In this document: positions 4,461 through 10,465 of the stretch, piece after piece
Numbering within the stretch: position 1 is the first letter of the stretch
Layout of the letters: each line of letters begins with the position of its first letter
DNA from: Neptuniibacter pectenicola
Lineage (GTDB): Bacteria; Pseudomonadota; Gammaproteobacteria; Pseudomonadales; Balneatricaceae
NCBI RefSeq assembly: GCF_001597735.1
Contig: NZ_LUTS01000017.1
Location: 1 to 39,281, forward strand
DNA: 39,281 bases
Direction of reading: 5' to 3'
Made by a program: the position numbers and the translations under genes
Notes under the pieces: generated by a model
What the model was told of the DNA's origin: nothing
The model's database searches: none
Seen by the model: the letters and a program-made list of their open reading frames with translations, nothing else

Positions 4461-4724
4461 ATGAAAAAGCATAAACATGAAGCAGAGTTAGTGAAGGAAG
4501 CACTACGCGTTGGCGCTATTTATTTAGAAAAACGTGGTGCTGGCAAATTCGAATCCAGCGACAGCGCCTCAAATAAGATTACAGCAATCTACCGACTTTT
4601 AGTGCAAGACGGCCTTATACAGCCACTTGCCAAAGGCCAAGACAATGAGATGCAAATGAAACATAAGCTAGCACTTTGGATGGAACGACAACTCCCAGCA
4701 GAGCATCCTTTACGACAGAAATAG
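4461..4724 (+). CDS. Small conserved protein resembling DUF5062
   Basis: 87 residues, charged and soluble-looking, with no signal peptide or membrane segment. The start MKKHKHEAELVKEALRVG, a central YRLLVQDGLI and the end KHKLALWMERQLPAEHPL resemble the DUF5062 family of marine gammaproteobacteria as I remember it. That assignment is from memory and no function is known to me. The ribosome binding site is weak. The stop codon is only four bases from the outer stem of a minus-strand c-di-GMP riboswitch, so RNA made from that riboswitch would be fully antisense to this gene. Confidence 0.72.
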   Translation: MKKHKHEAELVKEALRVGAIYLEKRGAGKFESSDSASNKITAIYRLLVQDGLIQPLAKGQDNEMQMKHKLALWMERQLPAEHPLRQK

Positions 4725-4728
4725 TAAA

Positions 4729-4813
4729 CCTCTCTTTCGGTAGCCCAGCCATCCCTTGGGATCTGTGACTTTGCGCCCTAAGATTACTCTTAGTTTGCCG
4801 TTATCGAGAGAGG
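4729..4813 (-). promoter_or_regulatory. c-di-GMP-I (GEMM) riboswitch, reads leftward
   Basis: Read on the minus strand, the segment carries the landmarks of the class I c-di-GMP aptamer in order. A 7-bp outer stem CCTCTCT/AGAGAGG (4813-4807 with 4735-4729) encloses the rest. Then come ACGGCAAAC, a hairpin TAAGA-GTAA-TCTTA whose GTAA is a GNRA tetraloop, GGGCGCAAAGTCACAG, a second hairpin ATCC-CAAG-GGAT, GGCTGGGCT and ACCGA. The unpaired conserved bases (GCAAAC, GCGCAAAG, ACCGA) fit only this strand. The family normally sits in the 5' leader of a c-di-GMP-controlled gene. Here the downstream strand is antisense to the DUF5062-like gene and the first sense gene is gloC, about 500 bases away. 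I see no intrinsic terminator directly after it. Confidence 0.85.
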
Positions 4814-8598: not shown

Positions 8599-8659
8599 GA
8601 CTAACCTCGATACGTACGCGGAGGTCAGCAAAATGGTCAACTTGAAATGTGCTTATCAA

Positions 8660-8738
8660 CATCTGGATTTCCTACGCCGGAACAAACCGGATCAGGTTCA
8701 ACGGGTATAGTCTCAGCCCCCAAGGGCACCCCGACCAA
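8660..8738 (-). promoter_or_regulatory. TPP riboswitch (THI element) controlling thiD-thiC
   Basis: The minus strand shows the conserved TPP aptamer in order: GGGGTGCCC, GGCTGAGA, ACCCGTTGAACCTGATC, a short P3-type stem CGG, and CCGGCGTAGGAA. The family folds on thiamine pyrophosphate and shuts down thiamine genes by hiding the ribosome binding site or by termination. No T-run hairpin lies between it and thiD, so translational control by sequestering the thiD site is more likely. Outer edges are approximate. Confidence 0.95.
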
Positions 8739-8756
8739 AAAACAGCCATTAGTTTA

Positions 8757-8854: not shown

Positions 8855-8898
8855 TGTAGAATTTTTCTTATTTTTTTATCCCATAAAACAACCATAAT
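8855..8898 (+). promoter_or_regulatory. Upstream box and -10 of the first GGA-rich sRNA
   Basis: An 18-base imperfect palindrome (8855-8872, TGTAGA-6-CTTATT) resembles the GacA/UvrY box TGTAAG-N6-CTTACA, matching four of six bases in each half. A -10-like CATAAT lies at 8893-8898. The core GAATTTTTCTTAT (8859-8871) recurs exactly 239 bases downstream in front of the second sRNA, and its CATAAT is also offset by exactly 239 bases. No good -35 is visible, as expected for an activator-dependent promoter. The GacA assignment is inferred. Confidence 0.55.
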
Positions 8899-8904
8899 TA
8901 ATCA

Positions 8905-9054
8905 CATGGAACGCCAGTACAGGGATAGCACCAAATGGATGACCCCGTTAAGCGGAATGACGGCAGGCAGCACTCAGGGAGATGCCTTCGGGCTCCGCAG
9001 GGAAAAGGGATACCAATATATAAGGGCGACTCAACGGATTGAAGCGCTCTTTTT
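8905..9054 (+). ncRNA. Predicted Csr/Rsm-type CsrA-sequestering sRNA, copy 1
   Basis: A non-coding interval of about 150 bases with eight GGA motifs, several in AGGGA or CGGA context, far above chance. The segment GTACAGGGATAG (8917-8928) matches 10 of 12 positions of the high-affinity CsrA site RUACARGGAUGU. The 3' end is an intrinsic terminator: GGGCG/CGCTC (9024-9028 with 9045-9049) followed by five Ts. Its loop contains TCAA-CGGA-TTGA, showing GGA at the tip of a hairpin. CsrB, RsmY and RsmZ RNAs have this design and titrate CsrA/RsmA. The 5' end is set from the -10 at 8893-8898. ORFs crossing here on either strand look random. Confidence 0.7.
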
Positions 9055-9062
9055 GTACCTTC

Positions 9063-9078
9063 GATCTTGTACAAGATC
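9063..9078. repeat. Perfect 16-bp palindrome between the two sRNAs
   Basis: GATCTTGTACAAGATC is fully self-complementary. It lies nine bases after the T-run of the first sRNA terminator and 16 bases before the upstream box of the second sRNA. It has no loop, so it looks more like a protein-binding site than an RNA hairpin. No equivalent occurs upstream of the first sRNA. Confidence 0.5.
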
Positions 9079-9093
9079 AGCTTAAAGACAAAA

Positions 9094-9137
9094 TTAGGAA
9101 TTTTTCTTATATCTATACGCTCGGTAAACGGCATAAT
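9094..9137 (+). promoter_or_regulatory. Upstream box and -10 of the second GGA-rich sRNA
   Basis: The 18-base box at 9094-9111 shares 13 identical bases with the box of the first sRNA. Its right half CTTATA matches five of six bases of the GacA/UvrY box, while the left half TTAGGA is poor. CATAAT (9132-9137) lies at exactly the same distance as in copy 1. The bases after the -10 also align between the copies (AATT, then TGGA). Confidence 0.5.
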
Positions 9138-9143
9138 TGAATA

Positions 9144-9284
9144 CGTGGATCTCCTGTTCATGGAACGAATACGAAGGACGGCCTCGAGAAGCGGAATGGA
9201 TGGCAATGATGCCCTAGGATTTTTTGCCGCAAGGATTATGGAAGCCAATAAAGGGGATGCCTCAAGGAGTGAAGCATCCCTTTT
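9144..9284 (+). ncRNA. Predicted Csr/Rsm-type CsrA-sequestering sRNA, copy 2
   Basis: About 140 bases with ten GGA motifs. It ends in a strong terminator, GGGATGC/GCATCCC (9254-9260 with 9274-9280) plus TTTT, whose loop again shows GGA (TCA-AGGAG-TGA). It aligns with copy 1 at ATGGAACG, AAGCGGAATG and the terminator loop (CTCAA-GGA-like, then GAAG), so the two look like an old tandem duplication. Overlapping short ORFs on both strands show no protein-like features. The likely role is titration of a CsrA/RsmA protein encoded elsewhere. The start is inferred from the -10. Confidence 0.7.
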
Positions 9285-9421
9285 ACCTTTATTACATCTT
9301 ATCTATATCAACGGTTATGCTCTTTAACCGCTCAATCCCCATTGAAGCCATACACACAGATCGTGTAGCGACAGACAACTAAGCTGCAAAGACATCCCGT
9401 TAAACATCTACTAAGATTTGA

Positions 9422-10465
9422 TTACCCGCCAGAAACGCTGGGCCTACAGGTACGACTCCAGGCATCATCAACAACTGACTGCACGGTACGATTACAACCC
9501 GCCGCTATCCATTCCGCTAACACTGTTGCTAAGTCTGGAAATAGCTGAGGCTCAGGCATAGGCAACGCCAGCCACTGTGCCACCCGCTCAGAATAAAGAT
9601 CATGAATAACCGTGCCCAAGCCTAAATGCTCAAGCACTTCCGCATTAGATTCCTGCTCAGCCTGCCCCAGCTGCGGTAACGTTAAAATCTTCTTACCGTA
9701 CTGTATAGCCTCACTCAGCAAGCCAAACCCAGAATTACAAATAACACCGGCACAATCCGATAAGTCACGATGAAAACCTTCACGCGCAAATGGCCGAAAA
9801 TGCACATTACCGTCATCTAACGCCTGATCAACCGGTGCATACACAAAAAAATCGTATGCACTATGCACCGCTAACGCCCGTTTAATCATCTCCACATTGT
9901 CATGGGGCAGGTAGACAACAACCTTATTTGCGCACTTAGCGGGGGGAAATAGCGGCGGTTGAATCAAAGGGGGACAGATCGCCTGATTAAAATGATGCCA
10001 ATGAATACCGACCGCAATTTTAGCGGGCGCGAAACATTTAATTTGATGCCTAAAGAAAAAACCTGACTTTGAGTCAGGTAGTTGATGCAAAAAAGCATAT
10101 TGATGGGCAATACCTATACTCGGCACACCTTTAAGCTTGGCGGCCCATGCGGTCACCGGCTCAAAATCAGTAATAACAAGGTCGTAGTCATCTAAATTGA
10201 GCGCTAAAATATCTTGCACCAACCTTAGCGGGTTATTACCGGTCAACGTCTTCCACTTATCGACCTTACTCCCCTCCATATAGAAGGTTAAGCCCCGTTT
10301 ACACTGATACTCGCCAAAAGGCTCCATATTAAAGAAGCCATCAGGCGCTCGCCCACTAAAAAGGTAGTCAACCTCTACACCGGCTTTTGCTAACGCAGGG
10401 GCCATTACCCGTGCACGCGTAATATGACCATTACCTGTCGCCTGAACACCATAAAGTACTTTCAT
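9422..10465 (-). CDS. MJ1255/VC2487-type glycosyltransferase
   Basis: 347 residues with a GT-B look. The N-terminal VLYGVQATGNGHITRARVM is the substrate-side glycine-rich loop typical of the MJ1255/VC2487 family. The C-terminal half has ICNSGFGLLSEAIQYGKKIL and LPQLGQAEQESNA, matching the UDP-sugar-binding region of MurG-like and UGT enzymes. There is no signal peptide or clear membrane span, so it is probably cytosolic or membrane-associated. Its start lies three bases after the PAP2 phosphatase stop, so the two are almost certainly co-translated, suggesting work on a lipid-linked substrate. Acceptor and sugar are unknown. Confidence 0.82.
   Translation of the reverse strand: MKVLYGVQATGNGHITRARVMAPALAKAGVEVDYLFSGRAPDGFFNMEPFGEYQCKRGLTFYMEGSKVDKWKTLTGNNPLRLVQDILALNLDDYDLVITDFEPVTAWAAKLKGVPSIGIAHQYAFLHQLPDSKSGFFFRHQIKCFAPAKIAVGIHWHHFNQAICPPLIQPPLFPPAKCANKVVVYLPHDNVEMIKRALAVHSAYDFFVYAPVDQALDDGNVHFRPFAREGFHRDLSDCAGVICNSGFGLLSEAIQYGKKILTLPQLGQAEQESNAEVLEHLGLGTVIHDLYSERVAQWLALPMPEPQLFPDLATVLAEWIAAGCNRTVQSVVDDAWSRTCRPSVSGG

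Follow-up and report, generated by a model that had tools for sequence, protein, structure and literature searches.

The question raised by this locus is what is encoded in the gap between thiD and a glycosyl-transferase-like gene of Neptuniibacter pectenicola. We analysed a window of 39,281 nucleotides (assembly GCF_001597735.1, contig NZ_LUTS01000017.1), in which the gap is bordered by a TPP riboswitch on the side of its neighbour thiD (8652-8743, minus strand) and by the glycosyl-transferase-like gene on the other flank (9422-10465, minus strand). A c-di-GMP-I-GGC riboswitch was also found in the window at 4735-4808 on the minus strand (RF03167, 61.4 bits). The preliminary description had read the gap as a tandem pair of homologous small RNAs, probable decoys of CsrA/RsmA. 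The gap consists of two plus-strand units, each comprising a palindromic element, 22 nt, a CATAAT -10 box and an RNA, some 140-150 nt long, with a hairpin at its end. The 5' and 3' termini of both RNAs are predictions from the sequence. In the first unit, the palindromic element GTAGA-N5-TCTTA (8856-8870) stands 22 nt ahead of the predicted -10 box (8893-8898), with equal spacing in relatives, and is followed by sRNA copy 1 (8905-9056), its P2 helix (5' arm 8952-8955, partner 8995-8998, from the alignment and covariation) and a terminator hairpin with a CGGA loop (9022-9051, predicted fold -11.7 kcal/mol). The second unit has the element TAGGA-N5-TCTTA (9095-9109, by sequence match), a -10 box predicted from sequence and spacing (9132-9137) and sRNA copy 2 (9144-9284), which shows all features of the family: a conserved 5' block, UGGAUCUCCUGUUCA (9146-9160), that could form a hairpin with the anti-Shine-Dalgarno loop CUCCU (9151-9155), the covariation-supported helices P1 (GGC 9180-9182, partner GCC 9244-9246) and P2 (GCGG 9191-9194, partner CCGC 9227-9230), and a terminator hairpin with an AGGAG loop (9250-9284, predicted fold -17.7 kcal/mol). 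Copy 1 is without the anti-Shine-Dalgarno block and helix P1 and keeps the promoter, P2, the GGA motifs and the terminator. Copy 2 would thus be the full-featured gene and copy 1 a diverged duplicate.

Two open reading frames of more than 80 amino acids cross the region (8898-9248, minus strand; 9067-9327, plus strand), so that a small protein gene had to be weighed. Both start with TTG, neither gave a match in the Pfam search, and they run across a promoter or a terminator; in relatives the core of the RNA varies in length from 100 to 143 nt. A coding function of the modules is therefore extremely improbable, in agreement with the earlier judgement that the gap holds no convincing protein gene.

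The GGA counts reported for the two modules, 8 and 10, were reproduced, and no other stretch of the window reached 8 GGA per 150 nt on either strand (step 10). Ten GGA in copy 2 (9144-9283) were equalled by 3 of 1000 dinucleotide shuffles, and the eight in copy 1 (8905-9056) by 60 of 1000. Both motifs described as shared by the copies were found: ATGGAACG occurs at 8906 and 9160, AAGCGGAATG at 8950 and 9189, and the former is seen twice more in the window, at 4680 and 34641. The segment 8917-8928 does match 10 of 12 bases of the SELEX consensus for CsrA, but five other sites in the window match equally well. As to the proposed intrinsic terminators, both hairpins fold and carry GGA in the loop; copy 2 has a weak U-tract of four U, and the promoter/terminator pattern scan reported no plus-strand terminator or promoter at either module. 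Single-sequence folding energy gave no signal against shuffles (z 0.02 for copy 1, -0.44 for copy 2), and the evidence for structure is therefore comparative.

The preliminary description had named CsrB/CsrC and RsmX/Y/Z as the known families of this design. The covariance-model check did not bear out membership: an Rfam 15 search, at the gathering cut-off and at E <= 10, gave no acceptable match for either module, be it to CsrB, CsrC, RsmX, RsmY, RsmZ or another family, and so the modules are not members of these Rfam families. An Rfam match to rli22 was rejected as a chance match, being on the opposite strand and far under its cut-off. Of 57 related genomes, 22 gave matches in a BLAST-type search that used the region as query. 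One genome of the host's own genus (G007) gave no such match, and its csrA match was partial (18 profile positions); since this assembly is fragmented, absence of the RNA from it is unsure. An exact scan for the 5' block across 84,980 species, each represented by a single genome, returned 55 stretches, in records of Neptuniibacter, Marinobacterium, Nitrincola, Neptunomonas, Pontibacterium, Osedax symbionts and metagenome-assembled genomes of Oceanospirillaceae/Oceanospirillales; three of the 55 were in unrelated records, and all three were without the upstream element. We also built a covariance model for the RNA family, R1, which contains the 5' block. It matched copy 1 at 8906-9016 (61.3 bits) and copy 2 at 9145-9248 (96.7 bits). 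Within the host's family 29 of 40 genomes had a match, and these represent 10 of 16 genera. Order-wide, 8 of 244 genomes matched under strict filters, all eight from the host's family, of which the set holds at least eight genomes. Because R1 and the exact scan both include the block, copies bearing it are favoured in these searches. A DNA similarity search of a plasmid collection with the modules gave no match. Multiple R1 matches occurred in 8 of the 29 genomes, with a maximum of five (G278); they were mostly adjacent, with up to three copies in tandem among relatives, and lay on separate contigs in G246, G029 and partly G278. The homology of the tandem pair was confirmed, and since diverged tandem copies also occur in relatives, the suggestion of duplication with divergence stands. 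Judged from sequence comparison, the modules belong to a conserved predicted RNA family that is absent from Rfam 15.

The alignment used 59 of 72 cores, near-duplicates being excluded; in 3 of 75 copies no 3' end was found by script, and the block filter excluded at least one altered-block copy (G005, L015 minus strand). Helices P1 (GGC/GCC) and P2 (GCGG/CCGC) were paired in 96.8% of cells across the 59 copies, against just 16.9-48.4% when the partner was shifted by 1-3 columns. In P1 and P2 together, 31 cells had changed on both sides, a value reached by 0 of 500 shuffles, where kinship among sequences can beat shuffles even without structure. A GGA was invariant in 59/59 copies at alignment columns 3-5, 18-20 and 33-35, and almost invariant at columns 57-59 and 140-142. 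In the predicted folds of 60 of the 75 copies, those with a readable terminator, the mean unpaired value was 0.57 for GGA and 0.42 for the entire RNA. Two further hairpins were considered: GUUC/GAAC (columns 12-22) was rejected for want of covariation support, and UGGAU/GUUCA showed 0 changes on both sides, its sequence being too conserved. The loss of the block and of P1 in copy 1 could suggest that the modules are untranscribed or decaying GGA-rich repeats without function, but the promoter element and the covarying helices are retained across 10 of the 16 sampled genera, and we consider this explanation very improbable.

By far the best reading of the sequence is that of sequestering sRNAs of the CsrB/RsmZ kind, and the modules are very probably paralogous sRNA genes of one CsrA-sequestering family, with binding deduced from the way they are built and from CsrA being encoded in the genome. 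GGA motifs exceed chance, though weakly in copy 1, and lie partly in loops, and promoter, upstream activator-type element and terminator hairpin can be assigned to each gene from the sequence. CsrA was found in the host and in 40/40 family genomes, and that of the host has L4 and R44, which we take to be RNA-contacting residues. Two genomes showed an unusual expansion of csrA paralogues, with 9 (G018) and 14 (G032) CsrA-domain matches, some of them under the cut-off. Together with the hairpins and the conserved structure, these features support the decoy function first proposed. In the proposed mechanism, a response-regulator-type activator would bind TARGA-N5-TCYTA just upstream of each promoter, and the 8-10 GGA per RNA, several beside P1/P2 and one in the terminator loop, would titrate CsrA dimers off mRNAs. 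Against the sponge reading are the negative Rfam result, the GGA count of copy 1, equalled by 60 of 1000 shuffles, its loss of P1 and the negative scanner result, as well as the lack of an over-cut-off GacA/UvrY in the family and a palindrome whose spacing and position are unlike those of the GacA box.

The palindrome was followed through the family, where its consensus is TARGA-N5-TCYTA. Of 84 block matches (<=4 mismatches), 75 had the palindrome upstream with <=2 mismatches; the other nine, without the element, were dropped. The gap between the palindrome and ATAAT was 22 nt in 57 of the 75, 23 nt in 8 and unread by the script in 10. The element overlaps the -35 region, with its centre at about -42 from the predicted start. 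The GacA/UvrY box TGTAAG-N6-CTTACA, as given in PMC4682653, was absent as an element of the modules; in the same paper the UvrY site of E. coli csrB is centred at -183/-182. The modules resemble CsrB/CsrC in combining a GGA-rich, probably sequestering RNA with a palindromic, probable activator site, and differ from CsrB in the sequence and position of the palindrome. Canonical GacA/UvrY, scored as an above-cut-off match to NF007018 (UvrY/SirA/GacA), was found in 0/60 family genomes; across the order, 31 of 56 genomes had such a match, with none in the two listed from the host's family. Divergent relatives under the cut-off reached 183 bits in the host (L096) and up to 215 bits in the family. 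The L096-type protein is conserved across much of the family, and in a tree that includes it ten canonical GacA proteins form a separate branch, which fits descent of L096 from GacA as well as another origin. It is the natural candidate for the protein that reads the palindrome.

Four exact copies of RGAATTTTTCTTAT occur in the host genome, two at the modules and one each at C112:641 and C160:141661; allowing one mismatch, the palindrome piece gave 9 matches against 8 for the reversed control, which as a set is chance level. Behind the C112 copy lies a further RNA, unrelated to the modules, which has GGA hairpins (L028 minus strand 502-606, G000:C112 near 500-655) and an outer helix ACAGAG/CUCUGU. 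This RNA is conserved in five genus genomes, 4 of its 30 predicted pairs survive changes on both sides, and a search against Rfam gave no match for it; it is likely an additional CsrA sponge. Since the palindrome is common to both RNA families, it looks like the mark of a regulon of Csr-type sRNAs. At the C160 copy (L034, C160:141661 minus), the exact palindrome piece lies upstream of a gene whose Shine-Dalgarno sequence sits inside a hairpin, CTACA-AGGA-ATGTAG, and this gene is possibly a CsrA-controlled member of the palindrome regulon. In another genome (L117 ~393-620, G006:C1 near 1434482), the palindrome is followed, by eye, by an RNA with several GGA-loop hairpins and a terminator, which differs from both other RNA families. 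In several genomes, genes of small CxxC...CxxC proteins were also seen behind the palindrome (L039, G000:C171:21940 minus, with one mismatch; L115, L116 and L120), and two of these proteins, partial and translated by hand, had no match in Pfam.

Conservation along the RNA is highest in the 5' block UGGAUCUCCUGUUCA, which the preliminary description does not mention and which resembles the anti-Shine-Dalgarno tail of 16S rRNA. As the copies had been gathered partly by this block, it was recounted in copies picked out independently of it, solely by the promoter element and a minimum of six GGA. The core GGATCTCCTGTTC was exact in 31 of 35 loci from the BLAST search (2 variant, 2 lost) and in 31 of 37 from the R1 search (4 variant, 2 lost). 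The block was lost in copy 1 of the window, in one G005 copy and in the RNAs of two g16 genomes. Its conservation is greater than a CsrA site would need, for which the GGA would suffice, and this raises a dual mode, compatible with the sponge, in which GGAUCUCCUGUUCA, with its CUCCU, would pair with the Shine-Dalgarno sequence of csrA and block translation; one RNA would then lower both CsrA activity and CsrA synthesis. We put this forward tentatively, as a serious possibility that nonetheless falls short of an even chance. Nine block bases are complementary to the host csrA leader, ACAGGAGAT, and the predicted pairing of -20.8 kcal/mol was equalled by 2 of 338 sampled starts. The pattern AGGAGATYC-N2-9-ATG occurs five times in the 3.6 Mb of the host; three of the five lie where a gene plausibly begins, csrA among them. 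Across 11 genus genomes it was found 4-12 times per genome (0-6 in the reversed control), and it stands at csrA in 10/10 genus genomes with a full csrA.

Between genomes, csrA leaders reaching -16 kcal/mol were found in 33 of 34 with the block (a variant block in three of the 34) and in 1 of 13 without it (the RNA is missing from 11 and lacks the block in 2). Mean pairing was -20.1 kcal/mol with the block (n = 34) and -13.7 kcal/mol without (n = 13), against a background of -12.7 kcal/mol (324 genes). Four csrA paralogues in three of the genomes were at background level (-9.9 to -11.8), and the two g16 genomes that kept the RNA and lost the block have weakly pairing csrA leaders (-14.9 and -12.9). 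This contrast is confounded by phylogeny: on the LysC tree there are just two changes in the block, which amounts to 1-2 independent contrasts, and so the association is not statistically testable. Other observations also weigh against csrA silencing. G272 is block-less, yet its csrA leader pairs strongly (-19.6). None of the three variant blocks pairs best with its own csrA (ranks 2, 4 and 12 of 34 for the gain relative to the consensus block), which gives no sign of compensatory change, and CsrA autoregulation alone could conserve a GGA-bearing csrA leader. Most of the block is paired in the fold predicted for the RNA on its own (0.25 unpaired; loop bases 0.28-0.49), and the CUCCU-loop hairpin of the block, which appears in the minimum-free-energy fold of copy 2, is missing from the centroid and the RNAalifold consensus; the alignment shows no covariation by which to judge it. 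The search bias towards block-bearing copies bears on this reading as well. The block might instead seed pairing with the Shine-Dalgarno regions of other mRNAs in general, with csrA incidental. Four genus genomes, checked by translation, have AGGAGATCC at the start of a conserved 88-aa gene (L251, G000:C127:210522 minus), and 3 of these 4 have ACAGGAGATCC there; the gene has no Pfam match and is a candidate second pairing target. However, csrA is the most regularly found target, and we consider the general seed unlikely. The fullest version of the preferred sponge reading, in which sponge and csrA antisense act through one block, the upstream copy is a pure sponge and the reader of the palindrome has replaced canonical GacA, is somewhat doubtful when taken as a whole.

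Tandem Rsm sRNAs are already known, and the unusual feature here is the conserved antisense-like block. In Pseudomonas brassicacearum, RsmX-1 and RsmX-2 are tandem duplicate RsmA-binding sRNAs, and the modules resemble them, as described in PMC7911923, in tandem duplication, near-identical upstream elements and GGA motifs. Unlike RsmX-1/RsmX-2, the modules have no Rfam relation, occur in up to three adjacent copies, and have family-specific P1/P2 helices, an anti-Shine-Dalgarno block and another palindrome, in a family without GacA over the cut-off. Duplication of csrB is known in Vibrio, according to PMC6262261. For Pseudoalteromonas fuliginea, PMC11882849 lists sRNA0654 among CsrA-bound RNAs as a predicted cis-antisense RNA on the CsrA mRNA; the modules would share with it an action on this mRNA and differ in that sRNA0654 is a predicted cis-antisense RNA. 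Our literature searches found no report of a CsrA-linked sRNA in Neptuniibacter or Marinobacterium, the Oceanospirillales query giving E. coli BarA work, and none of base pairing with rsmA mRNA in connection with GacA and Hfq. CsrB is more than twice as long as the module RNAs. McaS of E. coli is a single RNA that titrates CsrA and base-pairs with mRNAs, the same two activities as proposed here; to our knowledge, it targets no csrA mRNA and is no dedicated Csr decoy.

With these modules the Csr/Rsm system would gain an RNA family that is missing from Rfam 15, has covariation-supported helices and belongs to a marine lineage. In this lineage, Csr sponges seem to operate in the absence of a canonical GacA, and the question arises of what reads the palindrome. 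Should csrA be silenced through the block, a single RNA would affect CsrA at two levels, and copies 1 and 2 would offer a natural comparison of a sponge alone with a sponge plus antisense.
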